Assembly: GCF_013141825.1 (NCBI RefSeq)
Contig: NZ_RZNH01000022.1
Coordinates: 1-64,000, forward strand
DNA from: Marinifilum caeruleilacunae
Lineage (GTDB): Bacteria > Bacteroidota > Bacteroidia > Bacteroidales > Marinifilaceae
Length of the DNA stretch: 64,000 nucleotides
Direction: 5' to 3'
Shown piece after piece: positions 35,257-62,295 of the stretch. Each line of letters opens with the position of its first letter. Position 1 is the stretch's first letter. A program made the translations under genes and the position numbers. The notes below the pieces were generated by a model. It was not told the DNA's origin and made no database searches. It was given only the letters and a program-made list of their open reading frames with translations.

Positions 35257-35478
35257 TTGGTGGAATTAGGTTTTCATAAATAGATAATCAAATTTAGTTA
35301 AATTTTTTGGATTAAAAACAGGATTATCGTTCTATGGCAAACAAACACTTCCCGTTCTGGATTGTTAAATATTTAGATTGACAATTCTGATGCTTTCTAA
35401 TTTAGGGTATTACAATGGCTTTGCGGATTGACATTATCAGCTTTATTGTTATTTTTGGGAATCTATAGAAAAAATCTC

Positions 35479-38580: not shown

Positions 38581-38614
38581 TACTTTTGATAAATCGATTT
38601 AGTAAACCGATTTA
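38581..38614 (+). promoter_or_regulatory. Promoter with tandem LacI-type operators
   Basis: TACTTTTG (38581-38588) matches the -7 consensus TAnnTTTG. One base later begins the perfect palindrome TAAATCGATTTA (38590-38601) with the central CG typical of LacI-family operators. A second copy with one mismatch, TAAACCGATTTA (38603-38614), follows 13 bases later. Repressor bound here would cover the transcription start of the LacI-MFS-ROK operon, giving autoregulation. Confidence 0.75.
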
Positions 38615-38630: not shown

Positions 38631-39629
38631 TTGAAAAAGAAATCAATTAAAGATATAGCACAAGAGCTTGGCCTATCCAAAACAACAGTTTCATTTGTTT
38701 TGAATAATAAGGGTGATGAAAAAAATATCAGTAAGAAAACCCAGGAAAAAATTCTTGCCTACGTGCGTGAAGTAAATTATCAGCCCAACCAAATTGCAAA
38801 AAGTTTGAAGAAAGGCACAACGCATACCATTGGGTATTTGGTTCCTGATATTTCGAATCCATTTTATGCAAAAATTGGACGATTAATAGAAGATGTATTG
38901 GCTGATAAAGGATATCACCTTCTTATTGGCAGCACCGACGAGAAGCAAGAGAAGGAGGATGCACTGCTAAATATGTTTGTAAACCGACAGGTTGATGGTT
39001 TGATTTTAGCCTCCACTTTTGAAAATTTGGGGATGCTTAAAACTTTATCGGCTCAACGATTTCCAATGGTGTTTTTCGATCGGGAACATCCTGATTTTAT
39101 TGGCAATTACATTTTGGTTGAGAATAAAAATGCCATGAAGGAGGCAGTAAATACTGCTATAAATAAAGGAGCAAAGAAAATTGGGCTTTTATCTATAACA
39201 CCAAATATTTATTCCTTAAAGTTAAGGATAGACGGATATCGTGAATCTCTGGTTGAGAACCAGCTAAATGTCGACGAAGATCTTATGCGAATTGTTGATA
39301 ACAGCAGGATTAAAGAGAGTACGCAAGAGGAGTTGAATTATTTAATGGATAAGGATGTTGATGCCGTTGTGTTTACCAATAACCAGATTACTGCACTGGC
39401 ACTTTGGGCAATGAATATCAATCACAAAGATAAAATCGATTCAGTAAGGTTTGTCAGTTTTGATAACCTGGATTTATTCGATTACTCAAATCCGAAGGTC
39501 AATTCAATTGCTCAGCCAATAGATAGCATTGCAAATCATCTTGTTGATATCTTGCATGAAGTGATGCAATCAACTGAAAGAGTGAGCAAAAGAATTGTAT
39601 TAGAACCTAAATTAATAGAACGATTATAA
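38631..39629 (+). CDS. LacI family transcriptional regulator
   Basis: A 332-residue regulator that uses a TTG start at 38631 (MKKKSIKDIAQELGLSKTTV). The helix-turn-helix (SIKDIAQELGLSKTTVSFVL) and hinge (YQPNQIAKSLKKG) are canonical. The periplasmic-binding-like sugar domain starts at HTIGYLVPDISNPFY, and MVFFDREHPD and VRFVSFDNLDLFD line the effector cleft. It probably represses its own operon (with the MFS transporter and ROK kinase, 10 and 20 bases apart) through the tandem operators just upstream, and responds to a mono- or disaccharide released by the nearby glycosidases. The effector is not determined. Confidence 0.93.
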   Translation: MKKKSIKDIAQELGLSKTTVSFVLNNKGDEKNISKKTQEKILAYVREVNYQPNQIAKSLKKGTTHTIGYLVPDISNPFYAKIGRLIEDVLADKGYHLLIGSTDEKQEKEDALLNMFVNRQVDGLILASTFENLGMLKTLSAQRFPMVFFDREHPDFIGNYILVENKNAMKEAVNTAINKGAKKIGLLSITPNIYSLKLRIDGYRESLVENQLNVDEDLMRIVDNSRIKESTQEELNYLMDKDVDAVVFTNNQITALALWAMNINHKDKIDSVRFVSFDNLDLFDYSNPKVNSIAQPIDSIANHLVDILHEVMQSTERVSKRIVLEPKLIERL

Positions 39630-42042: not shown

Positions 42043-44580
42043 CTACGATATTTCCTTACTCACAATATCCTTAAAGGAATATTGATACTCTTCGTTGTAG
42101 AATTTTAAATACAGTTTCCTGTAATGCTCAAATGTTTCGATTGCCAGACTGTGTTTGCCTTGAGTAGCGAGCAGGCAACATTTAGTTTTTAAGGCAGTTT
42201 CGTTCATTTGGTCAAATTCAAATATTACATTTGAAATTGCCAGGGCGATGACTTTATCGGTTTTAGAATCTTTAATGATTTCTTCCAGAGTACCAACAAT
42301 CATGCCTGTGTTAAAATCTTTAAATGAATCCAGCCATTCTGGAAAAATATCTCTTAGCATGGCACCACGCTGAAGGATAATAATTATTTCTGCAAGGTTT
42401 TCAATTTTTCCTTGTTCACGAATGGATTTGATTCCTTTCTGCACATAGTCAAGATCACAGAAAATATTTTCAGGAAGTGTAATTTTCCAGTAATTGTTGT
42501 CGAAAATAATCTCGGTTCCAGGTAAATCTTCAAGAATACCGCGTAGTTTTTTAATATTAACACCACGGTTGTTTTTGGCTTTACTTTCCGATTTATCGGG
42601 CCACAAATATTCCTGAATTCTCTTGGAAGAGATTCCTTTTCCTTCGTTAATAGTATTCAAAAGAATAAGCAGGAACAATTCCTTAAGTGTGGGGCTAAAT
42701 CGATAAGTGATATCTTTTGCTTTCTCATCAAACACCTGGAAACCACCAAACATGATAATGGCATTGTTTTTTGGTATTTCGTAATCTGATATTGGAGCTT
42801 CAAAAATATCTGGTGATGTATATACTTTATACTCACTTTTGTTTTTCTTCTCTTTTTCCTTACGGATTTTTCTCACAATTAAAGCGACAAAAAGGACAAG
42901 AACAACAGCCAGTATGGTATAGAAAATTTTGACCGGCATTGGTAGGCCAACACCGTTAATGTTAAAGTCATCTTTATTTCCTGGTTCGTAACTTATGGTG
43001 TAGATATTTACCTCATGGGTCTCATCTTCAGTTTGATGAGAAGTGATGGCAATCAACTTATTTTCACTGTTCCAGTAATATAGATCGGCAAAGGACTCAA
43101 TATCAAGAAAATTGTATGGTATGCTGTCGCCAATAAAAACAATTCTTGGTTCGTGAACAAATCCTTTAATTGCTCTTAGATAGGTATTTTGTTTAGTCGA
43201 TGGAAACATTAATGTGTAGAAGCTACTGTCGCTTGCATTGAGCTTCATGCTATTTATTGGCAGGAACTGGAATTGTTCGTCACACTCGTAATCCCACAGG
43301 TGCTTAATTTTTTTCTTCTCGAAATCAATTTTGTACAAATCGTAATAGAATTCCTTGCCTAAAATTTGCTTCCCCATAGAGTTACCCAATCCCCCAAATA
43401 GGAAAACTGTATTTGGGTTTTTTTCCGATTTTCCAAGAGATGCAAGATACCTGGGCTGAATGGTGTCGCCAGAAAATTCAATTTTATTCCAGCTGTTTTG
43501 CTCAGTGTCAAACGACAGGATATCATTGAAATAAGAATAATATCCATATCCACCAATGGTAGTAATTTTGCCGGTTTCGGGATGTAATAATTTGTTGTGA
43601 TGCCAAAATCTTGGAGCATCATGAACCGAAGATTCAACATTTCGACTCCAGGTATTAGTGTTTGTATCCAGAGTAGATATCAAATTTTTGTTGAAACTGT
43701 AGGTGCTGATATTTCCATTCTTGTCATAAATAATTTGCTGCGCCTTTTCGAAACATGGAAAACCCTTTACTTCTTCCTTCAGTTTCGATAGGGTTTTGTT
43801 TAATGGATTGAACGATTGAATACTTCCATCCATGAAAATGAAATTGATTAGCTCTTTTTCTTTGTCGTAGAGCAAAGAGGGAAGTGTTGGGAAATTTAAA
43901 GATTTGATTTTTACCCATTCGTTATGGTAATCCACAACCCAGTCAGGATTAAATACCTTGGCCGACTTGCTCGAGAGTACATCCTTCACCAATGAGTTGT
44001 TTGTCTTTTTTAGAGGCCAAAGATGTCTTGGTGCTCCATCAATTCTTACACTAATATCCTTTACGGATATGGATGGAACTTCATCGATAAAAAATCCATA
44101 TTTATTGACAACACCAAGCGATAGTGCAAAGTCCGAATTTTGAGGAAAACTGATGTCCGATTCTAATTTTTTATCTTCAAATAAGAGATTAATTTTATCA
44201 TTAACCGCATCTATATGTATCTCAAAATCAATCCATCTGTTGTTTTTGATTTTTTCATCCTCCAGGTTAAGATGAAATTTCGTTGTGCGCTTGTTATGAA
44301 TGACAAAAATATCTGGTTTGCGATAGGTAACCTGTATTAAATTTTTGCTTTGATTTTCTTTTAAGGATAAGATTTCACCATAGTGGGTTTCCGATTCACG
44401 AAATGATAGCTTAAAGTGAATCGTAAAATCGGTGATATAGGATATGTTGCCATTGTGGGTAATATCTATACCAGTCCTATTCTCCTTGGTTACTTCGTTG
44501 GACTTAAAGTATATGCCATGATCTGCCATCAGATCAGGTACAAAAAATAGTAAGAGAATTAAGCAATTTATTAATCGCAT
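42043..44580 (-). CDS. Transmembrane LamG/Kelch sensor with SARP-like winged-helix and BTAD output
   Basis: An 845-residue one-component regulator. A signal peptide (1-19) is followed by a LamG/concanavalin-like domain (about 25-185), then a Kelch-type beta-propeller (about 225-540; TIGGYGYYSYFNDILSFD, VFLFGGLGNSMGKQ). One membrane helix (550-569) with a basic stop-transfer follows. The cytoplasmic part holds a winged helix (about 607-702, MFGGFQVFDEK, SSKRIQEYLWPDKSESKAKNN) and a BTAD-like helical region (about 708-845), the layout of SARP activators. Divergent from susC, it probably senses glycan outside and activates the locus in place of the usual HTCS or ECF/anti-sigma system. Confidence 0.8.
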   Translation of the reverse strand: MRLINCLILLLFFVPDLMADHGIYFKSNEVTKENRTGIDITHNGNISYITDFTIHFKLSFRESETHYGEILSLKENQSKNLIQVTYRKPDIFVIHNKRTTKFHLNLEDEKIKNNRWIDFEIHIDAVNDKINLLFEDKKLESDISFPQNSDFALSLGVVNKYGFFIDEVPSISVKDISVRIDGAPRHLWPLKKTNNSLVKDVLSSKSAKVFNPDWVVDYHNEWVKIKSLNFPTLPSLLYDKEKELINFIFMDGSIQSFNPLNKTLSKLKEEVKGFPCFEKAQQIIYDKNGNISTYSFNKNLISTLDTNTNTWSRNVESSVHDAPRFWHHNKLLHPETGKITTIGGYGYYSYFNDILSFDTEQNSWNKIEFSGDTIQPRYLASLGKSEKNPNTVFLFGGLGNSMGKQILGKEFYYDLYKIDFEKKKIKHLWDYECDEQFQFLPINSMKLNASDSSFYTLMFPSTKQNTYLRAIKGFVHEPRIVFIGDSIPYNFLDIESFADLYYWNSENKLIAITSHQTEDETHEVNIYTISYEPGNKDDFNINGVGLPMPVKIFYTILAVVLVLFVALIVRKIRKEKEKKNKSEYKVYTSPDIFEAPISDYEIPKNNAIIMFGGFQVFDEKAKDITYRFSPTLKELFLLILLNTINEGKGISSKRIQEYLWPDKSESKAKNNRGVNIKKLRGILEDLPGTEIIFDNNYWKITLPENIFCDLDYVQKGIKSIREQGKIENLAEIIIILQRGAMLRDIFPEWLDSFKDFNTGMIVGTLEEIIKDSKTDKVIALAISNVIFEFDQMNETALKTKCCLLATQGKHSLAIETFEHYRKLYLKFYNEEYQYSFKDIVSKEIS

Positions 44581-45011
44581 AATTTAATGAGAGGCTTGGT
44601 TAATAATTAAAACGTCGTGTGTGAGTACCAAAGATATTTAAATCTATTAAGACTAAGAAGAAAGATGCTATAAAATAGTATTAAAAGTGCCAATTTATAA
44701 GGCTTTTTGGATAATTACACTTGAAAAAATGTCACTAACTTTTACGAAATTTTAAAAGATTTGTATGATATTACCAAACTAAAGCTTCGCATCGGGTAAT
44801 AGCACGAAATCCTCTTCTAAAATGCGATGATTATAAAAAACAGATTAATTCTCCCAAACTCCCTAAAAACAAGCAAATACAGCAAGGTTAATGCATTTCG
44901 CGAGGCGATTAATTCAATATTAATCGTGAATTAATACGATTGCGCTAATATTGGTTTCAGAAAAAATTCACATGATTTTTTTGTTCATTGTATAATTAAT
45001 ATTTACTAACT
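44581..45011. other. Divergent regulatory region between the SARP-like regulator and susC
   Basis: These 431 bases contain no coding frame. They hold the repeat element at 44907-44935 and, 15 bases after it, a possible weak promoter (TTGG at 44951 and TTTG at 44980 with a poor TA part). That layout would suit an activator-dependent promoter. A long leader without clear structure precedes susC. Confidence 0.55.
44907..44935 (+). promoter_or_regulatory. Triple TTAAT direct-repeat element upstream of susC
   Basis: TTAAT occurs at 44909, 44920 and 44931, exactly 11 bp apart; the outer parts also form the inverted repeat ATTAATTCA/TGAATTAAT. The core CAATATTAATC recurs identically in the element at 62226-62255 ahead of the last GH92 gene, with about 26 of 33 aligned positions shared. 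An 11-bp direct-repeat period is what SARP-type activators recognise, and one such gene is adjacent. Confidence 0.65.
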
Positions 45012-48000
45012 ATGAAGAAATGCTATTTAAGTAATCTTCATTCCATCTTAACTAACCCATTAAGTTTTGGAAGGAAGATTAGTAGTTTAGCCTTGCTTGT
45101 TGCAGTATTAAGTTCGCCTTTTGCTGCAAATGCAAACGTTAACAGTCTATCTGAAGACAATTCAGCAGTAGCTGTACAGAAATCTGTAACAGGTACGGTA
45201 ACTGAAGAGTCTGGAATGTCACTGCCAGGTGTATCTGTTGTTGTAAAAGGTACAACTGTTGGTACGGTAACCGATGTTGATGGTAAATACGAAATTGCTG
45301 CTGATGAATCGGGAGTATTGGTATTTAGTTTTGTCGGAATGACAACTCAGGAAATTACTGTAGGTTCTCAAACAGTAATTGATGTAGTGATGGCAGCTGA
45401 TGCTTTACAAGTAGACGAAGTTGTTGTTACTGCCTTAGGTATTAAAAGAGAAAAGAAAGCTCTTGGTTATGCCGTTCAGGATGTAAAAGCAGATGAGTTA
45501 ACCCAAACAGGTAATTCTGATCTTGTAAGTTCATTACAAGGCAAGGTTGCCGGTGTGCAGATTAGTCAATCTGGTGGTGGTGTAGGTGGTACATCAAGAA
45601 TCGATATCCGTGGTTCCAGTTCATTACTTGGTAACGATGAGCCATTATGGGTTGTTGATGGTGTGCCATTTAGTAATGGAAGCGGCCGCGATGGTAGTGT
45701 TTGGGGCGGTACGTCTCGTGCAGGTGGTGCTTTCGATTTGAACCCGGAAGATATTGAATCAGTTTCAATCCTGAAAGGTCCTAATGCTGCTGCTCTTTAC
45801 GGTGAGCGTGGTGGTAATGGTGTTGTTTTGGTTACTACTAAAAAAGGAACAAGAGGTAAAGGTCTTGGTATTACTTATTCTGGTGGTTATACCATTTCTG
45901 AAGCAGCTTACATGTTAGATCTTCAGGACAAATATGGTCAAGGTAACAATGGAGTATATGATAAGAATGCAACAGCTTCATGGGGACCAGAAATGACAGG
46001 TCAGATGTTAGAGTCATGGACTGGCGAAACCATTCCATATGAATTACAAAAAGATCGCTTAAAAGATTTCACAAGAACAGGAACCAACCAAAAACACAGT
46101 TTGGCGTTCACTGGTGGAAATGATAAAGGTACTTATAGAGTTTCTTTAGGAAAAGATATCCTTAATGGAATTTACGAAGACCATAAAGTTGAAAAAGTAA
46201 CTTTTGATTTAAGAGCTGACTATGATATCAACAATTGGTTAAATGTTGATGCTAAGGTATCTTTCTTCAACACAAAAGGTAAGGAACGTCCTGAAATTGG
46301 AAACTATTCATATGTTTCATACTTCAATACCATGCCAATGAATATTCGCAACCAGGATTTGGCTCCAGGTTATGAAATTCTTGGTGGACAGCATGTTGAA
46401 AAATTGTATACAACTGCAAATGCAAATTATAGAAACCCTTATTTTCTTCAGGCGCAAACAACCAACAAGGATGAAAGAAACAGAACCTTCGGTTATATCG
46501 CAGCGAATGTAAAAATAACATCCGATTTAAAGGCAAAATTTAAATACGGTATGGATAGCTACAGTTTCGAAGCACTTGAAGGTTATTTATTTGCTGATAA
46601 TGTAGATTCTAGTCGTCCAAATTATAATCCTTTACAATCGAACTTTAAGGAAGAGAATTACGAATTCTTGTTAAGCTATAACAAAGATCTTAATGAAGAT
46701 TTCACAATTGGTTTGAACTTTGGTGCCAATAGCATGAAGAGCAGAATGAAGCAATTGTCTTCTACATCGGGTCGCTTGACTTCTGAGAATGATTTCTTCC
46801 TGGGAGCTGGTTCAAATATTCAGTCTGCTGAAAGCATTACAGAAAAAGAAGTTCGCTCGGTATATGGTTTTGGACAAGTAGGATATAAGAACATGTTGTT
46901 CCTTGATTTTACGGCTCGTAACGACTGGTCTTCTACTTTGACTTCACAGACAGTTGATATGGATAACTCCTATTTTTATCCTTCTGTAAGTTTGAGTGCT
47001 TTGGTTTCTGAAATGGTTGATCTGCCTGATTGGGTATCCTTCGCAAAAGTAAGAACTTCATGGGCAAGATTAGGTAAAGCAACAGATCCGCACTTGGCAG
47101 CTGGCCAGGCATTTAATATTGGTAGTTGGAACTATAACCTGTCTACAGGTAATGTACCTTATCAAGGGGTTCAGGATGGTTTGGATCCAGAGTTGTCTGA
47201 TTCATACGAGATTGGATTCGATTTGAGAATGTTCCAAAATAGATTAGGTGTTGATTTTACCTACTATAACGAAAAAACAAAGAATCAAATTGGGTACCTG
47301 GAAGCTGTTCAAAGTACAGGATATTCTGAAGTGCTATCGAATATTGGTGAAGTTTTGAATAAAGGTTTTGAGGTAATGGTTTCAACTGTACCTGTTAAAA
47401 CAAATGATTTAACTGTTGGACTTGATTTTAACTTTGCTAAGAACAAAGGTACCTTAGAAAAACTTGCCGGTAGTGTGCCACGTGTTCCACATGGTATGGG
47501 CGTTTACTCGTACTTGAATCAAGACCTTGGTCAAATTGTTGGTAGTATCTATGCTCGTAACGAAAATGGTGATATCATTATCGACGAAAATGGTTTAATG
47601 ACTACAGAACAAGGTGATGATCACGTAATTGGTAATCTGCAACCAGACTGGACCGGATCGATTAACCTAAGCGTTGATTATAAAGGATTGTACATGTCTG
47701 CCTTAGTTTCTATTCAAGAGGGTGGAGATATTCTTTCTTCATCGGAAAGAAGCGCAGTGAGTGCAGGTACAGCCGAAAGAACATTAGAAAATGACCGTAT
47801 GGCTTTCTTTGTTGATGGTGTTGCTATGGATGGTGGACCAAACAACGTAATCATTTCGGCTGAGGAATATTGGAGACAATTGTCAAAAGTTGATGAAGAA
47901 TTCATCTACGATGCATCTCACATGAAATTGAAAGAATTAGCTATTGGTTATAACATTCCAAAGTCAATTTTGAGTAAAATTCCTCATAATCCAATCAAAT

Positions 48001-48170
48001 CTGCTCGTGTTTCAGTAGTAGGTAGAAACTTATTCTATTTCTATAAAGATACTCCAGGTACAGCACCGGATGCAAGTGCTTATAGCACTGATTATGCTGC
48101 ACAAGCGTATGATTTCTCTCCGGTACCAGCTACCAGAACATATGGATTCTCGCTTAATGTTGGATTTTAA
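45012..48170 (+). CDS. SusC/RagA family TonB-dependent outer-membrane transporter
   Basis: A 1052-residue protein with a long N-terminal signal (about 1-40, ending near FAANA), a CarboxypepD-regulatory-like domain (VTGTVTEESGMSLPGVSVVVKG, residues about 55-130), then the TonB box/plug region (DEVVVTALGIKREKKALGYAV, VAGVQISQSGGGVGGTSRIDIRG, WVVDGVPF) and a 22-strand-type barrel to the C-terminal aromatic SLNVGF. It imports glycan fragments using TonB energy and pairs with the SusD-like lipoprotein 18 bases downstream. It is the first gene of the glycan operon and has the repeat element upstream. Confidence 0.95.
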   Translation: MKKCYLSNLHSILTNPLSFGRKISSLALLVAVLSSPFAANANVNSLSEDNSAVAVQKSVTGTVTEESGMSLPGVSVVVKGTTVGTVTDVDGKYEIAADESGVLVFSFVGMTTQEITVGSQTVIDVVMAADALQVDEVVVTALGIKREKKALGYAVQDVKADELTQTGNSDLVSSLQGKVAGVQISQSGGGVGGTSRIDIRGSSSLLGNDEPLWVVDGVPFSNGSGRDGSVWGGTSRAGGAFDLNPEDIESVSILKGPNAAALYGERGGNGVVLVTTKKGTRGKGLGITYSGGYTISEAAYMLDLQDKYGQGNNGVYDKNATASWGPEMTGQMLESWTGETIPYELQKDRLKDFTRTGTNQKHSLAFTGGNDKGTYRVSLGKDILNGIYEDHKVEKVTFDLRADYDINNWLNVDAKVSFFNTKGKERPEIGNYSYVSYFNTMPMNIRNQDLAPGYEILGGQHVEKLYTTANANYRNPYFLQAQTTNKDERNRTFGYIAANVKITSDLKAKFKYGMDSYSFEALEGYLFADNVDSSRPNYNPLQSNFKEENYEFLLSYNKDLNEDFTIGLNFGANSMKSRMKQLSSTSGRLTSENDFFLGAGSNIQSAESITEKEVRSVYGFGQVGYKNMLFLDFTARNDWSSTLTSQTVDMDNSYFYPSVSLSALVSEMVDLPDWVSFAKVRTSWARLGKATDPHLAAGQAFNIGSWNYNLSTGNVPYQGVQDGLDPELSDSYEIGFDLRMFQNRLGVDFTYYNEKTKNQIGYLEAVQSTGYSEVLSNIGEVLNKGFEVMVSTVPVKTNDLTVGLDFNFAKNKGTLEKLAGSVPRVPHGMGVYSYLNQDLGQIVGSIYARNENGDIIIDENGLMTTEQGDDHVIGNLQPDWTGSINLSVDYKGLYMSALVSIQEGGDILSSSERSAVSAGTAERTLENDRMAFFVDGVAMDGGPNNVIISAEEYWRQLSKVDEEFIYDASHMKLKELAIGYNIPKSILSKIPHNPIKSARVSVVGRNLFYFYKDTPGTAPDASAYSTDYAAQAYDFSPVPATRTYGFSLNVGF

Positions 48171-48188: not shown

Positions 48189-49751
48189 ATGAAAAAAATT
48201 AATATAATATTATTCGCATTAGGATTAATTATCCTGGGCAGTAGTTGCTCCGATGATTTTGGAGATATCAACACTCCTTCTGATGCGACCACCTCAGTAG
48301 AACCTAAGTTTTTATTTAATCCATTGGTTCAGGCGGTGTTTGACAACTATCAACGTAATGTAAACCTTTATCCTGATTTATATTCTCAGTATTGGGCGAA
48401 TACCGTTTCTGGTTTTGCTTCACCACGTTATGAATATGTAGATGGATGGATTGGAAATCAGTGGAACGAGCACTATACAAAAGATTTACGTAGAGCGAAT
48501 TCTATTCAAGATTTATATGGAGAAGATCCTTCATATGTTGACGCTATTGCAATCAAAGAAATTTGGATGTGTTACTGGTGGTCAAGAATTACAGATACAT
48601 ATGGTGATGTTCCTTATTTTGGAGCAGGTAGAACCGAAGCTGTTCCTTACCACTCACAAGCAGATATTTATACAGATTTATTTGCAAGATTAGACAAAGC
48701 AGTTAATGCCATTACAGGAAATGCAGATCAGTATGAGTATAACGATGGTTACGATCTGATTTATGATGGTGATGCAATGCAATGGCAAAAGTTTGGTAAC
48801 TCTTTGCGTTTGCGTTTAGCAATGAGAATTGCAAATATTGATCCAACTAAAGCAGCTGCTGAAGCACAAGCAGCAGTAAGTGGTCCTGGAGGATTATTGG
48901 CAAGCAATGCTGATGTAGTTAAAGTTCCAATGTGGAGCCAGGGGTGGTACGATTATTTGCACCAAATGGCGTGGAACTGGAATAACATTCGTATGTCTAA
49001 AACTATGTCTGATTATTTATACAATCAATCAAGTGTGGGCGAAGATCCAAGAGCTCCAAAATGGTTTGCTTACCAGGTAGAAGGAGCACCAACTACTAAG
49101 GAAGATGCAGGTTTCGATCGTTATTATGGAATTGAGAATGGATACAATCTTGTTCCTTCGGATGCAGACGAAAACTATGCAACAATTAACCTTGAAGGTG
49201 GTTACATCGACTTTGTTGGAGATGGTGCTAATGATAAGATGTATTGCCCTGTAATGTTCTACTCAGAAGTTAAATTCCTTGAAGCAGAGGCTGCTATGAG
49301 AGGTTGGGTTTCAGGTGATGCAAATGCATTGTACCTGGAAGGTGTACAGGCATCTATGGATTATGTAGGTGTTGATTCAGGTGACGCAAGCGATTATATC
49401 GCAGGTTTGCCAACACTTTCTGGTGCTACCGAAGGCGATCTTAAGCAATTGATTACACAGAAGTGGATTGCTAACTTCCCGAATGGTGTTGAAGCATGGG
49501 CTGATTTCAGAAGAACAGATTATCCTGACATTACATTGCCACACGATGGTGTAAGTGGTAGTTCATCAGTTGCATCTGGAACATGGGTGAAACGTGTACG
49601 TTACCCAGACAATGAGCACCTGCAAAATGAAGCAAATATGCCTTCTTCTCTAAACACTTTAGATACAGACAGAATGGATACTAAAGTGTGGTGGGATACC
49701 GCTAATACCAAAGATAAAGATGGTAGTGGTTTAATGAATAGCAATTTGTAA
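48189..49751 (+). CDS. SusD/RagB-like surface glycan-binding lipoprotein
   Basis: A 520-residue lipoprotein with lipobox LGSSC near residue 20, followed by the acidic DDFGDINTPSDA export signal. The helical body (VEPKFLFNPLVQAVFDNYQRN, AIAIKEIWMCYWWSRITDTYGDVPYFGAG, WQKFGNSLRLRLAMRIANID) fits the second SusD family (PF12771-like). Near the C-terminus, EAWADFRRTDYPDI is conserved in this group. It caps the SusC barrel and delivers oligosaccharide. It belongs to the same operon as the SusC gene. Confidence 0.93.
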   Translation: MKKINIILFALGLIILGSSCSDDFGDINTPSDATTSVEPKFLFNPLVQAVFDNYQRNVNLYPDLYSQYWANTVSGFASPRYEYVDGWIGNQWNEHYTKDLRRANSIQDLYGEDPSYVDAIAIKEIWMCYWWSRITDTYGDVPYFGAGRTEAVPYHSQADIYTDLFARLDKAVNAITGNADQYEYNDGYDLIYDGDAMQWQKFGNSLRLRLAMRIANIDPTKAAAEAQAAVSGPGGLLASNADVVKVPMWSQGWYDYLHQMAWNWNNIRMSKTMSDYLYNQSSVGEDPRAPKWFAYQVEGAPTTKEDAGFDRYYGIENGYNLVPSDADENYATINLEGGYIDFVGDGANDKMYCPVMFYSEVKFLEAEAAMRGWVSGDANALYLEGVQASMDYVGVDSGDASDYIAGLPTLSGATEGDLKQLITQKWIANFPNGVEAWADFRRTDYPDITLPHDGVSGSSSVASGTWVKRVRYPDNEHLQNEANMPSSLNTLDTDRMDTKVWWDTANTKDKDGSGLMNSNL

Positions 49752-49772: not shown

Positions 49773-51638
49773 ATGAAATCATTTAAATTAAATATAAAAT
49801 TGTGGTCTTACCTAGCTGCCTTTTTGATGGTATTTACCTTCGCAGCTTGTGATGATGACGACAATAAAGGAGGCACTTTCGATACTGCTTCTCTGGAAAC
49901 ATTAATTACCGAGGCTGAAACTCTTATTGAGACAACAGAAGAAGGAATTAATGCAGGTGATCAAAAACCAGGCTCAAAAGCCGAATTGCAATCTGTAATT
50001 GATTGGGTTCGTTGGAAAATAGATAATGCCGAAGCTCAGGCTGATATTTCTGATGCAGCAGTGAAATTACAGCGTTATATCGATATCTATAAAGCAAATG
50101 TTGTAGCAGTTGCTATGCCTTGGATTCAGCAGGAAAATGATACCTACATACAGATTTCTGATAATATCAAAACTGTATTGGGTGGAGCATGGACAATTGA
50201 ATTGAAGTGTTACATTGTTGATCTAAACACAAAAGGCTATTCAAACAACTTATTTGCTGCTGAGCAAATGGGTCCTGATAGTGGTTTCGCTGCAAGATAC
50301 TTTAGCGATGGTAAAATCCAGATCGTAACAGGAAATAGTAATTGGGTAGATTCAGGTGATCAGGCTGGACCTGGTACAATGAAGTCTGGAGAATGGATGG
50401 ATGTTACTATGACCAGCGATGGAACTCACCACGAACTGTTTATAAACGGTGCAAAAGTGGCAGAAGTTGATAACACACACCTTTTGGCTGCTGATGCTCC
50501 TTTCGTTATCGGTAACAGCCCAACCTGGACCGATCGTGTATGTAATACCTTAGTGAAAGACTTCAGAGTTTGGAATTCGGTATTGGATGAATCAACCATT
50601 AATGCAAACAGAACTGCTTCATTCGAAGGAACAGAATCAGGACTTGTTTGTTACTTCCCATTGGGATCTGATCTTGGATCTGAATTTAGCGATGTAAGCG
50701 GGAACTATACTGCTAGCATTAAAGGGAAAGTAGAGTGGGTTGCTGAACCTCCGGTAATTGTTTTAGATAAAGCAAAACTTCAGGAAGCGATTCAGGAATT
50801 AACAGATTTCAAAGCGACAATTGTAGAAGGTGATCAGGATGGTGATTATCCTGCTGGTACTATTGCTTACATTGATGAGTTACTTGCTGATGCGAATGAT
50901 GCTCTTGCGAACGAAGGTCGTCAATCTGCATTGGATGATAAAGCTGATGCTTTAGTGGCTGCAATCGAGGTAATCAACTCTATGTTGGTAGCTGATTCTG
51001 ATGGTATTCTTGTTGACAGAGATGTAGCTTCAGCTATTGGTTTAAGAATTACTCCTAACTATACTCCTCAGGGCGATTATACTGTAGAGTTTAACGTAAA
51101 AGTGAAGAGCTTCTTCGGATACGGTACAGGTGAATTCTTTAACAATGGTGAATATGGTATCTGGGTATACGGATATACTGAATTGACCGAGGAAAATGTA
51201 TTGAATACTGGTCGTCTTTGGAACTTTACCAATGCAGGTAACGGCTGGCAAGGTCCTAGAGCCGAGGCTCAGTCTATTAAGTCGGGTATCTGGCAACATG
51301 TTGCTATCGTTCACGACGATGCTGCAAGAACAACAACAATTTATGTTGATGGTGTAGCAAAAGGTGTTCAGGAAGATATAGGTGCTCCAAATGTATCTGG
51401 CTGGGGTGAAATGTGGCTAGGTAATGGCTGGGGTAAAATGGATGGTTACATCAAAGACTTCCGCTTATGGGATGTTGCTCGTGATGAAGCTGATCTTGAT
51501 GCCGATATTGCTGGTAGCGAAGCAGGTTTGAATGTGTACTTACCACTTGATAGAGTAAAAGGGGTGAAGTTTGCAGACGAAACTGGAACTTACCAGGCAC
51601 ACATGAGAGGAATCTCTTGGAATGTTGTTGAAGACTAA
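49773..51638 (+). CDS. Surface lipoprotein with duplicated helical-LamG units (candidate glycan-binding protein)
   Basis: A 621-residue lipoprotein with lipobox FAAC and then DDDDNKGG, an acidic surface-export signal. It consists of two similar halves: a helical FIVAR-like stretch (about 35-110 and 330-410) followed by a LamG/concanavalin-like beta-sandwich (about 115-325 and 415-621), each with the end signature VKDFRVWN or IKDFRLWD. The LamG folds could bind carbohydrate. In the third position of a SusCD operon, it matches the place of SusE/SusF-type surface glycan-binding proteins, though it is not homologous to them. Ligand unproven. Confidence 0.78.
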   Translation: MKSFKLNIKLWSYLAAFLMVFTFAACDDDDNKGGTFDTASLETLITEAETLIETTEEGINAGDQKPGSKAELQSVIDWVRWKIDNAEAQADISDAAVKLQRYIDIYKANVVAVAMPWIQQENDTYIQISDNIKTVLGGAWTIELKCYIVDLNTKGYSNNLFAAEQMGPDSGFAARYFSDGKIQIVTGNSNWVDSGDQAGPGTMKSGEWMDVTMTSDGTHHELFINGAKVAEVDNTHLLAADAPFVIGNSPTWTDRVCNTLVKDFRVWNSVLDESTINANRTASFEGTESGLVCYFPLGSDLGSEFSDVSGNYTASIKGKVEWVAEPPVIVLDKAKLQEAIQELTDFKATIVEGDQDGDYPAGTIAYIDELLADANDALANEGRQSALDDKADALVAAIEVINSMLVADSDGILVDRDVASAIGLRITPNYTPQGDYTVEFNVKVKSFFGYGTGEFFNNGEYGIWVYGYTELTEENVLNTGRLWNFTNAGNGWQGPRAEAQSIKSGIWQHVAIVHDDAARTTTIYVDGVAKGVQEDIGAPNVSGWGEMWLGNGWGKMDGYIKDFRLWDVARDEADLDADIAGSEAGLNVYLPLDRVKGVKFADETGTYQAHMRGISWNVVED

Positions 51639-51851: not shown

Positions 51852-54128
51852 ATGCAAAAATTAAAATCAATCAAAACACTAGGATTATCGTTGCTGTTAG
51901 GAGTATTTGCTTCCTGCCAATTATCAGGTGGAAACAATAACGATAATAGCTTAACTCAATATGTCGATCCATACATAGGGTCGGGCGGACATGGCCATGT
52001 GTTTGTTGGAGCCAGTGTACCTTTTGGTGCAGTTCAGGCAGGACCAAGTAACTTTCACAAAGGCTGGGATTGGTGTTCATCTTACCATTATTCCGACAGC
52101 ATTATCAAAGGATTTTCGCATTTGCATTTAAGTGGAACAGGTTGTACCGATTTGGGCGAATTCTTAATTATGCCAGCAGTTGGCGAACTAAAAGTAAATC
52201 CTGGTTCACAGGAAAATCCCGAAGAAGGCTATGCTTCTTACTATAGCCATGATACCGAAAAGGCCGAAGCCGGATATTATAAAGTACATTTGGATACCTA
52301 TAATGTAGATGTTGAAATGACAACAACAGAGCGTGTTGCCATGCATCAGATTAGCTATCCGAAATCAGATGAATCCAGGTTGATTATCGATTTAAAAGAA
52401 GGAAATGGCGACCAGGCTACTGAGACGTTCTTCCATAAAGTGAACGATACCATTGTAGCTGGATATCGTTTTTCGAAAGGATGGGCCGCCGATCAACGTG
52501 AATATTTTGCCATGGTATTATCAAAACCAATAAACGAGGTATTGGTTTACGATGGAGACAAAAAATTAAAAGGCGATGCTGGTAAAGGAAAAGCCATAAA
52601 AGCATTTCTTCAGTTCTCAACTAAATCTTTCGAGAAGGTTCAGGTTAAATTTGGAATGTCGCCTGTAAGTATGGAGAATGCATTGCTAAATATTAAAACC
52701 GAAATGCCAGCCTGGAATTTCAGTGAAATACTGGCATCAAATAAAGCAAAGTGGAACAAAGAACTCGAAAAAATTCAAATCGAGACCAAAGATGAGGAAG
52801 CCAAGCGAGTTTTCTACACAGCCATGTATCACACTTTAATTGCTCCAAACATTTTCGACGATGTAAATGGAGATTATCGAGGCACTGATAAAGAGGTTTA
52901 CAACAATAAAAACAGAACAAATTATACACTGTTCTCTCTTTGGGATACCTATCGAACAGCACATCCGCTTTATACCATTACGCAGCCAGAAAGAGTACCT
53001 GATATGATCAATTCAATGTTGGAAATTTATCAGCAACAAGGAAAACTTCCTGTATGGCATTTGCGTGGTAACGAAACCAATACAATGGTTGGTTATAGCG
53101 CGGTTCCGGTAGTTGTAGATGCCTACTTGAAAGGTTTTAAAGGATTTGATGTAGAGCTTGCATACGAAGCTGTAAAGACAACAGCAATGGGCGATTTTGA
53201 GCCAGGCGTGAAAGAGTTGCAAAAGTATGGTTACATTCCTTGCGATATGATGCATGAATCGGTAGCAAGTGCGATGGAATATGCAATTAGCGATTGGGGA
53301 ATTGCTCAAATGGCCCAAGCATTAGGCAAATCGGAAGATGCAAAGTATTTTACAGAAAGAGCAAAAGCATACGAAAAGTACTTCGACCCAAAAGACCGAT
53401 TTATGAAAGGTCGCATGAAAGATGGTAGCTGGCGTACTCCTTTCGATCCAGTTTCGGCTCAGCACCGTGTGAACGATTATTGCGAAGGAAATGCATGGCA
53501 ATACCTTTGGTTGGTGCCTCAGGATCCCGAAGGATTGATTCAATTGTTAGGTGGAGATAAGCCATTTGTTGCCAAATTGGATAGTCTGTTTTCTATCTCT
53601 TCCGAGCTGGAAGAAGGCGCTTCCGCGGATATTACTGGCCTGATTGGACAATATGCTCATGGTAACGAACCTAGTCACCATGTTACCTACATGTACGCTT
53701 ATGCAGGCGAGCAATATAAAACTGCCGACAAAGTTGATTACATCTTAAACGAACTGTATACAGACCAGCCTGATGGCCTTTGTGGTAACGAAGACTGTGG
53801 ACAGATGTCTGCCTGGTATGTCATGTCATCAATGGGCTTCTACCCGGTAAACCCATCTAACGGAGCTTATGTATTTGGTCGTCCTTTATTCGACCAGGTT
53901 AGTATCGATTTGGGAGAAGGTAAAAAGTTTACAATCAAAACAATTAATAATAACAAAGAGAATATTTATATTCAATCAGTAAAATTAAATGGTCAGGATT
54001 ATAGCAAATCTTTTATTACCCACAAAGACATCATGATGGGTGGTGAGTTGCTATTTGAAATGGGCGCTGAACCAAACAAACAATTTGGTGCAAAACCTGA
54101 GGACAGACCAAAATCGATGGTATACTAA
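51852..54128 (+). CDS. GH92 alpha-mannosidase, lipoprotein, copy 1
   Basis: A 758-residue lipoprotein (lipobox FASC near residue 22). N-terminal beta-sandwich starts YVDPYIGSGGHGHVFVGA. The catalytic (alpha/alpha)6 domain contains YTLFSLWDTYRTAHPLYTI, LPVWHLRGNETNTMVGYSAV, the catalytic-acid motif HGNEP (Glu606) and CGNEDCGQMSAWYVMSSMGFYPV with the base Asp residues. GH92 enzymes are calcium-dependent inverting alpha-mannosidases, mostly exo-acting on alpha-1,2 or alpha-1,3 links. With the intact Glu it should be a standard mannosidase. Surface or periplasmic. The linkage cannot be set from sequence alone. Confidence 0.95.
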   Translation: MQKLKSIKTLGLSLLLGVFASCQLSGGNNNDNSLTQYVDPYIGSGGHGHVFVGASVPFGAVQAGPSNFHKGWDWCSSYHYSDSIIKGFSHLHLSGTGCTDLGEFLIMPAVGELKVNPGSQENPEEGYASYYSHDTEKAEAGYYKVHLDTYNVDVEMTTTERVAMHQISYPKSDESRLIIDLKEGNGDQATETFFHKVNDTIVAGYRFSKGWAADQREYFAMVLSKPINEVLVYDGDKKLKGDAGKGKAIKAFLQFSTKSFEKVQVKFGMSPVSMENALLNIKTEMPAWNFSEILASNKAKWNKELEKIQIETKDEEAKRVFYTAMYHTLIAPNIFDDVNGDYRGTDKEVYNNKNRTNYTLFSLWDTYRTAHPLYTITQPERVPDMINSMLEIYQQQGKLPVWHLRGNETNTMVGYSAVPVVVDAYLKGFKGFDVELAYEAVKTTAMGDFEPGVKELQKYGYIPCDMMHESVASAMEYAISDWGIAQMAQALGKSEDAKYFTERAKAYEKYFDPKDRFMKGRMKDGSWRTPFDPVSAQHRVNDYCEGNAWQYLWLVPQDPEGLIQLLGGDKPFVAKLDSLFSISSELEEGASADITGLIGQYAHGNEPSHHVTYMYAYAGEQYKTADKVDYILNELYTDQPDGLCGNEDCGQMSAWYVMSSMGFYPVNPSNGAYVFGRPLFDQVSIDLGEGKKFTIKTINNNKENIYIQSVKLNGQDYSKSFITHKDIMMGGELLFEMGAEPNKQFGAKPEDRPKSMVY

Positions 54129-54206: not shown

Positions 54207-56501
54207 ATGAAGAAAGCGAATATTCTATTAATTCTAATGGCATTCCTGGTTTCCTGTGCAGGAGAGAAAGAGGTAGTGAAAACCAGAATGACTTCCAGTG
54301 TTGATATGGTCAATCCATTAATGGGAACCGATTCGGAACACGCACTTTCCAACGGTAACACTTACCCTGCAATTGCAGTGCCTTGGGGAATGAACTTTTG
54401 GACACCCCAAACCGGCAATATGGGAAATGGTTGGACCTATGCTTATGATGCAAAAAAAATACGAGGCATTAAGCAAACTCATCAACCAAGTCCGTGGATT
54501 AACGATTATGCAGCATTTTCTTTCATGGCTGTAACAGGAGATCTAAAGTTTAACGAAGATGAGCGTGCCTCCTGGTTCTCGCACAAAGCTGAAGATGCAA
54601 AACCATATGCTTATGAAGTGTACCTGGCCGATTATGATGTGAAAACAGAGGTAACACCAACAGAGCGTGCTGCCATGTTTCGTTTTACATTTCCTGAAAA
54701 CGACAATTCATACATCCTCTTGGATGCTTACAACGAAGGTTCGGAGGTGAAAATTATTCCTGAAGAACGCAAAATTATTGGTTACTGCAGAAATAATAGT
54801 GGTGGTGTGCCAGAGAATTTCCACAATTATTTTGTAGCCGAATTCGATAAGGATTTTGAAATTGTTCACACCTGGAACGGTGATCAGTTAAACCAAAAAT
54901 CGAAAAGTGCAACAGGCGAGCATGTTGGCGCTGTTATCGGATTTAAAACCAAAAAGGGAGAACAGGTGCATGTAAAAGTGGCATCATCTTTCATCAGTAA
55001 AGAGCAAGCTCAACTGAACCTTTCAAGAGAAATTGGAAATAAAGATTACAATCAGATTAAAAAAGAAGCAAAACTGGCCTGGGAAAAGGAGTTTGCAAGA
55101 ATTAAAGTAGAAGGTGGAACCGATGATCAATTGGAAACATTTTACTCTTGCTTGTACAGAGTTTTACTATTCCCTCGCAAGTTTTATGAACTAAACGATA
55201 AAAATGAAGTAATTCATTACAGTCCTTACAATGGAGAGATACTGCCCGGCTACATGTTTACAGATAATGGCTTTTGGGATACGTTCCGGGCGGTATTTCC
55301 ATTTTTTACAGTCATGTATCCTGAATTGAATTCTCAAATCATGGAAGGCCTTGTAAATACCTACAAAGAAAGTGGATGGTTGCCAGAATGGGCAAGTCCG
55401 GGACACCGTGGCTGTATGATTGGTTCAAATTCGGCATCATTAATTGCTGATGCTTACCTAAAAGGGATCAAAGGATACGATATCGAAACCCTTTATGAAG
55501 CCATCATTAAAAATACCAATGGCTATAACAAAGCGGTAACATCGGTAGGTAGATATGGTGCAGAATATTACAACAAGTTAGGCTATGTGCCTTACAATGT
55601 TGGTATTCATGAAAATACAGCAAGAACATTAGAGTACGCTTACGCTGATTTTTGTGTATGGAAACTGGCCCAGGAATTAGGCCGTCCGCAAGAAGAAATC
55701 GACTTGTTTGCAAAAAGAGCTCAGAACTTTAAGAATGTTTTCGATAAGGAAAGCGGATTGATGCGAGGTAAAAATGAAGATGGAAGCTTCCAATCGCCTT
55801 TCAACCCTTTAAAATGGGGCGATGCATTTACAGAAGGAAACAGCCTGCATTACACATGGTCTGTATTCCAGGATATCAATGGCTTAATCGATTTAATGGG
55901 TGGGGAAGATCAGTTCATCTCAACTTTGGACGGTGTATTTGAAATGCCACCTGAATTTGATGATTCTTACTATGGATTTACCATACATGAAATACGTGAA
56001 ATGCAAATTGTGAATATGGGTAATTATGCGCATGGTAATCAGCCAATTCAGCATATGATTTACCTGTACAATTATGCAGGTCAGCCATGGAAAACCCAAA
56101 GCCGTGTTCGCGAAGTAATGGATCAGCTCTATACTCCACAAGCCGATGGCTACTGCGGCGACGAAGACAATGGACAAACTTCAGCCTGGTATGTGTTCAG
56201 TTCTATGGGATTCTATCCAGTATGTCCGGGAACCGATGAATATGTCTTGGGTTCTCCAATTTTCGATAAAGTAACATTACAGCTCGAAAATGGAAAAGAG
56301 TTTGTCATTTCGAGCACAGGAAACTCTAAGGAAAATGTATTTGTAAAAGATGTAAGCTTAAATGGTAAAACATACAATTTCAACTACATTAAACATGGCG
56401 ACATTCAAAAAGGAGGGGAATTGAATTTTGAAATGTCGGCTCATCCTAATATAGAGCGAGGCAGCAAAGCCGAAGCATATCCATACTCAATGAGTAAATA
56501 A
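54207..56501 (+). CDS. GH92 family enzyme with Gln at the catalytic-acid position, copy 2
   Basis: A 764-residue lipoprotein (lipobox LVSC at about residues 13-16). It has the GH92 body: VNPLMGTDSEHALSNGNTYP, FTDNGFWDTFRAVFPFF, LPEWASPGHRGCMIGSNSA and YCGDEDNGQTSAWYVFSSMGFYPV, so the base Asp side is intact. The catalytic-acid motif reads HGNQP (Gln612; codon CAG at 56040) where copy 1 has HGNEP. From memory, the same Glu-to-Gln change occurs in a GH92 enzyme that cleaves mannose-1-phospho-6-mannose, where the phosphate leaving group needs no acid. It therefore may uncap phosphomannan or act on another good leaving group. Same operon as copy 1. Confidence 0.92.
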   Translation: MKKANILLILMAFLVSCAGEKEVVKTRMTSSVDMVNPLMGTDSEHALSNGNTYPAIAVPWGMNFWTPQTGNMGNGWTYAYDAKKIRGIKQTHQPSPWINDYAAFSFMAVTGDLKFNEDERASWFSHKAEDAKPYAYEVYLADYDVKTEVTPTERAAMFRFTFPENDNSYILLDAYNEGSEVKIIPEERKIIGYCRNNSGGVPENFHNYFVAEFDKDFEIVHTWNGDQLNQKSKSATGEHVGAVIGFKTKKGEQVHVKVASSFISKEQAQLNLSREIGNKDYNQIKKEAKLAWEKEFARIKVEGGTDDQLETFYSCLYRVLLFPRKFYELNDKNEVIHYSPYNGEILPGYMFTDNGFWDTFRAVFPFFTVMYPELNSQIMEGLVNTYKESGWLPEWASPGHRGCMIGSNSASLIADAYLKGIKGYDIETLYEAIIKNTNGYNKAVTSVGRYGAEYYNKLGYVPYNVGIHENTARTLEYAYADFCVWKLAQELGRPQEEIDLFAKRAQNFKNVFDKESGLMRGKNEDGSFQSPFNPLKWGDAFTEGNSLHYTWSVFQDINGLIDLMGGEDQFISTLDGVFEMPPEFDDSYYGFTIHEIREMQIVNMGNYAHGNQPIQHMIYLYNYAGQPWKTQSRVREVMDQLYTPQADGYCGDEDNGQTSAWYVFSSMGFYPVCPGTDEYVLGSPIFDKVTLQLENGKEFVISSTGNSKENVFVKDVSLNGKTYNFNYIKHGDIQKGGELNFEMSAHPNIERGSKAEAYPYSMSK

Positions 56502-56713: not shown

Positions 56714-58141
56714 ATGAAAAGAAGAACTTTTTTAAGAAATTCATTGCTTTTTACAGGTGGCTTAAGCCTAATTGGAACAAAGGGATTTGCCATTAGTAAG
56801 GATTTAAAATATATATCGAACAGGCCAGAAGCCAATCAAAGAAATTTTGTTAGCAAGGCGGTTGACCGAAAAATTAAGGAGGTGAAAAAAGCCATTGCCA
56901 ATGAAGAGTTGGCATGGATGTTTGAAAATTGCTTCCCAAATACATTAGATACAACAGTTAGCTATTCTGAAGAAAATGGCAAACCCGATTCTTTCGTAAT
57001 TACCGGCGATATACATGCCATGTGGTTAAGGGATTCTACGGCGCAGGTATGGCCTTATTTGCCTTTGGTTAATGATGATGAGCAGCTTCAAAAACTGTTT
57101 CGTGGCCTAATTAACCGACAAAGCAAATGCATCAATATCGATCCTTATGCCAATGCCTTTAACAAAGGAGCAGAAGGCTCGCACTGGGAAAGCGATTTAA
57201 CCGATATGAAACCCGAATTGCACGAACGCAAATGGGAAATCGATTCGCTTTGCTATGCCATTCGATTGGCCTATCATTATTGGAAGAAAACAGGAGATAC
57301 CTCATGTTTCGATTCCGACTGGAGAAATGCCATGAATTTGGTGGTGAGAACCTTTAAAGAGCAGCAAAGAAAAGAGGATCAGGGTCCATATAGGTTTGCC
57401 AGGAACACCAGTAAACCAACAGATACATTACCTGGAAATGGTTATGGAAACCCTATCAAACCAGTTGGACTGATTGTTTCTTCTTTTCGTCCATCAGACG
57501 ATGCAACCATTCTGCCGTTCTTAATACCTTCCAATTTTTTCGCAGTGGTATCCTTACAACAATTGAATGAGATTTTGAACCACCTGAATATTGAAAAAGG
57601 CCTGGCAAATTCGGCTATGGAAATGGCTAAGGAAGTGGAAGCGGCACTTGTAAAATATGCAAGTTCAAATCATTTAAATCAAGGCGAAACTTTGGCCTTT
57701 GAAGTCGATGGTTTCGGCAACCAAATGTATATGGATGATGCAAATATTCCGAGCTTACTTTCCCTTCCATATTTAGGGGCTTTGGATGCAAAATCATCCC
57801 TATATCAGAATACAAGAAAGTTTATTTTGAGCGAAAATAACCCTTGGTACTTCAAAGGAGAATATGCCGAAGGAATTGGCGGTCCGCATGTAGGAGTTAA
57901 TATGATTTGGCCAATGAGTATCATCATGCAGGCCATGACTTCCGATCAGGACAAAGAGATTGAGAACTGTCTGGAAACTTTAATACGAACCCATGCCGGT
58001 ACCGGTTTTATGCACGAAACATTCCATAAAGATGATCCTAAAAACTTTACCCGATCGTGGTTTGCATGGGCCAATACTTTGTTTGGCGAGCTGATATTGA
58101 AAATTTACAAGGAACGACCACATTTATTAAAGCAGGTGTAG
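56714..58141 (+). CDS. GH125 exo-alpha-1,6-mannosidase with Tat-type signal
   Basis: A 475-residue enzyme. The start MKRRTFLRNSLLFTGGLSLI carries the RRxFL twin-arginine pattern and a hydrophobic stretch ending near GFA. The (alpha/alpha)6 fold shows GDIHAMWLRDSTAQVWPYL, SHWESDLTDMKPELHERKWEID and WYFKGEYAEGIGGPHVG, typical of GH125. Members are metal-independent inverting enzymes that remove alpha-1,6-mannose, the backbone link of yeast mannan. It would act in the periplasm, and unlike its neighbours it is not a lipoprotein. Only one base separates its stop from the GH65-like start. Confidence 0.93.
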   Translation: MKRRTFLRNSLLFTGGLSLIGTKGFAISKDLKYISNRPEANQRNFVSKAVDRKIKEVKKAIANEELAWMFENCFPNTLDTTVSYSEENGKPDSFVITGDIHAMWLRDSTAQVWPYLPLVNDDEQLQKLFRGLINRQSKCINIDPYANAFNKGAEGSHWESDLTDMKPELHERKWEIDSLCYAIRLAYHYWKKTGDTSCFDSDWRNAMNLVVRTFKEQQRKEDQGPYRFARNTSKPTDTLPGNGYGNPIKPVGLIVSSFRPSDDATILPFLIPSNFFAVVSLQQLNEILNHLNIEKGLANSAMEMAKEVEAALVKYASSNHLNQGETLAFEVDGFGNQMYMDDANIPSLLSLPYLGALDAKSSLYQNTRKFILSENNPWYFKGEYAEGIGGPHVGVNMIWPMSIIMQAMTSDQDKEIENCLETLIRTHAGTGFMHETFHKDDPKNFTRSWFAWANTLFGELILKIYKERPHLLKQV

Positions 58142-62190: not shown

Positions 62191-62225
62191 TTTACCTTTT
62201 CGATTGATTAATGATTCATCTGGCA

Positions 62226-62255
62226 GATTAATCTCAATATTAATCTTCATTTAAT
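62226..62255 (+). promoter_or_regulatory. Second copy of the triple-TTAAT element, upstream of GH92 copy 3
   Basis: TTAAT occurs at 62228, 62240 and 62251 (12- and 11-bp spacing). The core CAATATTAATC is identical to the susC-upstream element at 44907-44935. It suggests a second transcription unit of the same regulon beginning here. Confidence 0.6.
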
Positions 62256-62295
62256 CAGGAAAAGTTTAATTTGAACAAAGATTAGAAATTAGTGA

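Follow-up and report, generated by a model that had tools for sequence, protein, structure and literature searches.

Passages of one paper (PMC3878776) name SusR-like regulators, hybrid two-component systems (HTCS), and extracytoplasmic function (ECF) sigma factors with anti-sigma factors as the Bacteroidetes-specific types of glycan-locus control. SusR of Bacteroides thetaiotaomicron (BT3705) and SusR-like proteins are presented in those passages as membrane one-component regulators that control susCD and are often encoded beside it. The operators of Streptomyces antibiotic regulatory proteins (SARPs) are described in sections of another paper (PMC10936776) as repeats 11 or 22 bp apart, the 3' repeat being separated from the -10 element by 8 bp; for AfsR, one repeat occupies -40 to -30 and the other, judging by the stated box limits, -29 to -19. 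For Bacteroidota promoters, passages of PMC9723704 give a -7 box of the form TAnnTTTG.

The locus compared here with these systems lies in a 64,000-nucleotide stretch of Marinifilum caeruleilacunae DNA (contig NZ_RZNH01000022.1, positions 1 to 64,000), referred to in full as the window. Its central gene encodes a membrane-spanning regulator, REG, and diverges from susC across a 431-bp gap, the orientation given in the original prediction, an earlier reading of the bare sequence. REG is predicted, with a probability of about 0.8, to be a one-component SARP of the inner membrane and to act as the activator of an alpha-mannoside locus. Sequence or structure prediction supports its domain order, its topology and its SARP fold, the linkage to the locus, and the position, spacing and conservation of the operators. 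Coordinates of all features are collected in Table 1.

The topology of REG was read from hydropathy alone, which gave an N-terminal peak at residue 1 and a sole membrane segment peaking at residues 551-569. One lysine or arginine was found before this segment and eight after it, placing the positive side toward the C-terminus. All 21 full-length family members had a membrane segment in the equivalent place and the same lysine and arginine excess after it. The N-terminal peak was over threshold in 20 of the 21 (L053 was the exception), and L051 had a further borderline peak at 634.

Within the predicted periplasmic head, the Kelch families PF24681 and PF13418 matched REG in Pfam (E 6.8e-13, slightly short of the cut-off, and 1.2e-7, passing it, respectively), and PF24681/PF13418 matched 21 of 21 full-length members. 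The Kelch region was modelled with a predicted local distance difference test score (pLDDT) of 86; its best Foldseek matches were LZTR1 Kelch domains, and KLHDC2 was within the first ten. LamG was matched by Pfam weakly and in just one of the 21 members. Profile-profile comparison of REG residues 22-205 with 13 LamG sequences gave a probability of 87.5% (E 3.6e-6, for one target), and two control regions in the same comparison gave 0.3% and 0.1%. REG and three relatives scored over no NCBIfam cut-off. Taken together, hydropathy, Pfam, hhalign and models bore out the 845-residue chain originally described (signal peptide, LamG-like part, Kelch, one helix and a cytoplasmic SARP part).

The SARP module was modelled from a 34-sequence alignment with a pLDDT of 93.8. 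The model contained an OmpR-type winged helix and, after it, an all-helical BTA domain, and six of its six PDB matches at E<=0.001 were AfsR or EmbR chains (TM-score about 0.6). A SARP-like fold, expected near residues 600-845, was thus found with AfsR and EmbR as the sole matches at that threshold, and these matches ruled out the module as an artefact. The SARP domain was C-terminal to the membrane segment in 21 of 21 members, among which the soluble N-terminal SARP layout did not occur.

In Pfam, REG by itself matched neither Trans_reg_C nor the bacterial transcriptional activator domain (BTAD), as would be expected if the SARP-like part were a degenerate remnant that does not bind DNA and REG acted through other proteins. 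Among the 34 family members, at E up to 1, BTAD was matched in nine (best 1e-5) and Trans_reg_C in eight (best 0.013). The third helix of the REG winged helix carries NNRGVNIKKLR, and NNR.VNI.KLR is strongly conserved across the family. This conservation and the common DNA motif that accompanies the family both speak against a remnant, which is scarcely credible.

The motif is seen at two places in the window. Conservation of the REG-susC gap among 16 orthologs was highest at the TTAAT boxes of operator 1, the -7 box and the leader, with a weaker conserved block close to the start of REG itself. The box spacing of 21, 11 and 11 bp was constant in 16 of 16 loci. Three TTAAT boxes 11 bp apart occurred once in the 5.27-Mb genome, as did a reversed control pattern, and the three-box pattern did not appear in 100 shuffles of the window. 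When the window was scanned with the family core derived below (three copies of TTAAYC), the top score of 18/18 was at 62228, upstream of the GH92-like gene starting at 62375, and no other site reached 16 besides the susC site (16, both strands). The extra TTAATG box of this second operator and the -7-like box after it have the same placement as their counterparts at susC. Its triple was perfect in nine of nine orthologous loci fetched; the extra box was TTAATG in eight of these and TTAATA in the ninth (L230). If the -7 box is taken as -12 to -5, then in both promoters the extra box spans -70 to -65 and the final two boxes span -38 to -33 and -27 to -22. The predicted transcription starts are 44958 and 62278.

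Repeat statistics were computed for 52 of 84 regulator open reading frames (ORFs) kept as non-redundant. Marinifilaceae orthologs other than that of the window, records fetched twice, and relatives of kept loci (including L058, L060, L061 and L063) were dropped. In the 82 gaps adjoining the 52 regulators, triple repeats with a period of 11 were found eight times (0.5 expected) and with a period of 12 twelve times (0.7 expected); the other periods from 6 to 20 gave 0-3 triples each. The gap of L106 was counted twice within the 12 period-12 cases and once in the -7 box tally, and the repeats of L055 (period 12) and L113 (period 11) were not of the TTAA type.

Read toward the neighbouring gene, the family core was TTAAYC three times at 11-12 bp intervals. 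At a threshold of at least 15/18, the core was present in 22 of 49 gaps facing the start of a neighbour and, in reverse, in 10, compared with 1.2 in shuffles; control spacings gave 0-1 forward. Among the 34 non-facing gaps, three passed the same threshold forward and one passed it in reverse (0.2 in shuffles). Near regulators, sites scoring at least 17 occurred at 0.66 per 10 kb, compared with 0.04 in the remainder of these loci; in 140 kb from seven loci with susC but no regulator, no site scored 17 or more and one scored 16. A TAnnTTTG match (at least 5/6 positions) started exactly 9 nt past the last box in nine of the 22 gaps and 10 nt past it in three; about 0.3 were expected per position, and no other offset exceeded three. 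In a later set of loci that had played no part in choosing the motif, four of 11 facing gaps were positive (0.15 expected). Three later loci (L221, L223 and L225) were without a facing gap, and an operator-like site of L218 (16/18), in a non-facing gap, lies outside the four of 11.

Several further observations concern the repeats themselves. Triple repeats with periods of 7 and 14 were in excess in gaps more than 3 bp from regulator genes at many loci. TTAAYC triple boxes precede genes for fusions of a NapC/NirT-type cytochrome with a sulfatase-modifying factor in L064 (11558-13096) and L187 (12822-14387). Outside Bacteroidia (L103, L104, L105, L106 and L110), the boxes lie within ~50 bp after the stop codon of the regulator, and the next annotated start is often a long way off; the boxes of these five loci may mark the beginning of an unannotated RNA or small gene. 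In L067, L068 and L069, where LamG-SARP genes stand beside sulfatases, the boxes are TTACCC, not TTAAYC, and the third-helix segment is altered to NNRGTNVHRLR or NNRGTNIHRLR. A change of specificity is a possible explanation for these box and helix differences.

A REG match was found in 30 of the 97 relatives searched, and 17 of the matches, that of the window included, were full-length members in Marinifilaceae. Relatives with a name were Marinifilum, Labilibaculum and a bacterium classed in Marinifilaceae. The regulator encoded in the locus of Marinifilum sp. D714 is also that of genome G003, which is of the same genus as the window. In Marinifilaceae, susCD stood beside REG in each of the 16 orthologs whose susC flank could be seen. 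In the remaining locus, L033, the contig ends before the susC side, and the side with LacI, major facilitator superfamily (MFS) and ROK genes is present. Among LamG-Kelch homologs from Bacteroidia other than Marinifilaceae, susC/D lay within 8 kb in 18 of 26, where 3.2 were expected (P about 7e-12) from a background that is rough because one SusD Pfam family was counted per genome. A link between REG and the locus, originally drawn from position, is now backed by this susCD linkage and by SARP-type direct repeats in the locus promoters, which support control of the locus by REG at the sequence level.

Genomes matched by a profile of the SARP module numbered 30 of 395 in the phylum sample, 7 of 395 in the class sample, 17 of 295 in the order sample, 42 of 351 in a sample of another class and three of five in one family; the samples overlap, and weak matches in the phylum and other-class samples may be other SARP-like proteins. 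Some genomes had multiple copies of the module (six in G1032 and four in G942), and the genome of the window had one copy of REG. The LamG-Kelch head was present in 49 of 76 tabulated regulator genes. The SARP module stood behind LamG without a Kelch match in L062 and L064-L067, and behind a short head of another type in L054-L061, L063 and L189 (470-582 aa). No facing gap reached the TTAAYC threshold in the short-head loci tested (L054, L055 and L189). The L055 group belongs to a conserved gene set that also encodes a porin-like protein, an M14 peptidase and a flavoprotein, and the regulator of L105 (8901-11458) is split into two ORFs.

Besides the rough susD background, a number of points weigh against the proposed role of REG and its boxes. 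TTAAYC was taken from the data before being scored, 27 of the 49 facing gaps fall short of the threshold, and operator 1 itself scores only 16 of 18. Ten gaps pass in reverse; TTAA being a palindrome, forward and reverse are less sharply distinguished. Period-11 and period-12 triples also occur farther from the regulators, in 2 and 2 of 158 gaps within 6 kb and in 3 and 2 of 101 gaps beyond. Four of the 11 later loci, including one of the four positives (L222), came from genera already sampled. The LamG assignment of REG has the profile comparison as its sole source. Outside Bacteroidia, a susC/D label was found beside none of seven LamG-Kelch genes and in none of 11 later loci, some of which are short. 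The genome search proposed with the original prediction therefore upheld the association with susCD in Marinifilaceae and other Bacteroidia and failed to extend it beyond them. Since homologs outside Bacteroidia often keep the boxes without susCD, the susCD link is a property of the clade.

The other flank of REG holds LacI, MFS and ROK genes, and the LacI-family regulator at 38631 could be the one that controls susC, with REG a neighbour that has another job. All 16 loci have LacI-MFS-ROK conserved next to REG, and the TTAAT block contains an inverted repeat (TTAATTCA-N10-TGAATTAA). However, LacI has a CG-centred tandem operator of its own (TAAAYCGATTTA, at 38590 and 38603), which is conserved among the orthologs and which the susC promoter lacks. 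TTAAYC repeats also accompany REG homologs where no LacI homolog is labelled within 8 kb. L136, the other susC locus fetched from the same genome, has a LacI-like gene without REG and a single 16/18 site, which lies in a coding region on the opposite strand. Control of susC by LacI is accordingly very unlikely, and LacI was rejected as the owner of the susC boxes, its operator being elsewhere. Directly before the LacI gene (38590-38614), tandem palindromes TAAATCGATTTA and TAAACCGATTTA, conserved in orthologs, probably form a LacI auto-operator.

As a membrane-bound activator, REG would sample periplasmic glycan or oligosaccharide entering through SusCD with its LamG-Kelch head. Ligand binding would alter the packing of at least two chains via the single helix, probably through ligand-driven dimerisation. 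The SARP tails would bind side by side on TTAAYC-type repeats 11-12 bp apart, which cover about -22 to -50 and are preceded by the extra box (-70 to -65), and the bound modules would recruit RNA polymerase and help to open two promoters, those of susC and of the downstream GH92 gene (62375). From the first promoter, transcription would pass through susC and then the same-strand susD, LamG, GH92, GH92, GH125, GH65 and GH97 genes, on the assumption of a shared transcript. We infer direct binding, the identity of the ligand, activation rather than repression, and transmembrane signalling.

REG could also control the locus by another route, with proteolysis freeing the SARP module, or as a repressor. 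A linker of ~30 residues lies between the membrane helix and the SARP module, and relatives include SARP-only ORFs, such as one of 271 aa in L106. The gene for a trypsin-like protease (35428-37563), ~4.5 kb from REG, is kept close to the locus in orthologs; its product, however, looks secreted, because it has PKD domains and a sorting tail of the type IX secretion system (T9SS) type. The last two boxes (-38 to -22) fit an activator overlapping the -35 region rather than a block of the start site, as judged against the sections of PMC10936776. Release by proteolysis or repression is therefore unlikely, and an intact membrane-bound activator is preferred.

The content of the locus suggests alpha-mannosides as the substrate, for example fungal alpha-mannan or high-mannose N-glycans, rather than beta-mannan, since GH92 and GH125 genes are present and these families are known for such substrates. 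Gene content varied in places among orthologs. The MFS position (window 39640-40797) holds two families with unchanged flanking genes: the MFS protein is ~33-36% identical to that of the window in L033, L037, L038, L040, L042-L045, L047, L048 and L070, and 86-98% identical elsewhere. In L044, L046-L049 and L071, GH125 is located between the regulator and ROK, not after the GH92 genes, and the GH92 gene of L051 (6360-8660) is split into two ORFs.

Table 1. Features of the REG locus, with window coordinates, strand and basis of assignment.
Feature	Coordinates	Strand	Basis
REG, membrane-spanning SARP-type regulator, 845 aa, ATG start	42043..44580	-	ORF, Pfam, models, hydropathy
REG signal peptide, residues 1-19	44524..44580	-	hydropathy; cleavage site judged by eye
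REG LamG-like domain, residues 22-205	43966..44517	-	hhalign 87.5%
REG Kelch beta-propeller, about residues 206-540	42961..43965	-	Pfam and Foldseek; ends approximate
REG single membrane helix, residues 551-569	42874..42930	-	hydropathy
REG winged helix (OmpR/SARP type), about residues 603-701	42478..42774	-	alignment, model, structural match
REG BTAD-like helical domain, about residues 708-842	42055..42459	-	family Pfam matches, model, structural match
LacI-family regulator	38631..39629	+	Pfam
Operator 1, TTAAT boxes at 44888, 44909, 44920, 44931; spacing 21, 11, 11	44888..44936	+	conservation, motif scan
-7 box TAATATTG of susC promoter, 9 nt after last box	44946..44953	+	5/6 positions of TAnnTTTG
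SusC-like TonB-dependent transporter	45012..48170	+	Pfam Plug, CarbopepD_reg_2
SusD-like lipoprotein (PF12741/PF12771)	48189..49751	+	Pfam
LamG-domain protein (PF13385)	49773..51638	+	Pfam
GH92 alpha-mannosidase	51852..54128	+	Pfam
Second GH92-like gene	54207..56501	+	BLAST cluster with GH92
GH125 alpha-mannosidase	56714..58141	+	family scan
GH65-like hydrolase/phosphorylase	58143..60179	+	family scan
GH97	60184..62190	+	family scan
Operator 2, TTAATG at 62208, TTAATC at 62228, 62240, 62251; spacing 20, 12, 11	62208..62256	+	upstream of GH92-like gene 62375
-7-like box TTAATTTG, 9 nt after last operator 2 box	62266..62273	+	5/6 positions of TAnnTTTG
Third GH92-like gene, behind operator 2, cut by window end	62375..64000	+	BLAST cluster with GH92

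Among known regulators, the SusR-like proteins, as presented in PMC3878776 passages, share with REG the membrane one-component design, a periplasmic sensor, a cytoplasmic DNA-binding domain and adjacent glycan genes. The SusR-type protein used for comparison (L138, 5495-7090), a single representative recognised by its position beside GH13, GH97 and susC and compared by sequence only, has weak TPR matches, a membrane helix and DUF6377, and no sequence match to the SARP module. On this one representative, homology of REG to SusR was rejected, there being no TPR/DUF6377 relation by sequence. HTCS proteins likewise combine a large periplasmic sensor and a cytoplasmic DNA-binding output in one chain beside susCD. 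REG was rejected as an HTCS, having no Pfam match to histidine kinase, receiver or AraC-type helix-turn-helix domains (up to E 1). ECF sigma/FecR anti-sigma pairs share membrane signalling to susCD operons with REG, which had no sigma or FecR match in Pfam. In L102, the boxes stand upstream of a 196-aa ORF (sigma-like by its position before FecR alone), a FecR gene and susCD.

ToxR and CadC are membrane-anchored regulators with an OmpR-type winged helix and a periplasmic sensor, and their winged helix is N-terminal. Regulators of the ToxR/CadC type are not known to have a BTAD domain. REG differs from them in having its winged helix at the C-terminal side and in having BTAD.

With AfsR, EmbR and other SARPs, REG shares the OmpR-type winged helix followed by the BTA helical domain. 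As described in parts of the published record, AfsR is an antibiotic regulator with NOD and TPR domains, and both AfsR and EmbR have the SARP domain at the N-terminus, whereas that of REG is C-terminal, membrane-anchored and behind a LamG-Kelch head. The predicted targets of REG resemble the SARP operators in the sections of PMC10936776 in their direct repeats (11 bp there; 11-12 bp for REG) and in a last repeat near the -10/-7 box (9 nt for REG). The operator sequence differs, being TTAAYC for the REG family and CGTT(T/C)ATCG for actinobacterial SARPs.

The original prediction had proposed a distinct regulatory class. Membrane one-component topology was already known from SusR, so that any distinctness lies in the sensor and in the DNA-binding module of SARP type, and to this extent the proposal stood. 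Among the matches listed in a search of open-licence literature, which is weak evidence of absence, no publication dealt with membrane SARPs, LamG/Kelch regulators or SARPs in Bacteroidota, and the available portions of PMC10766802 and PMC11237719 did not mention SARPs. Membrane-anchored SARPs are rather likely to be a separate class of glycan-locus regulators in Bacteroidia, with LamG/Kelch heads and a shared operator grammar, and other Bacteroidota would keep the operator with other targets. If so, glycan loci would have a further control architecture with a readable operator, from which target genes would be predictable by sequence. The sigma-adaptor mechanism of actinobacterial antibiotic regulators, as outlined in the published sections, would then also be used by Bacteroidota on a very different promoter, and SARPs would be able to operate from the membrane.

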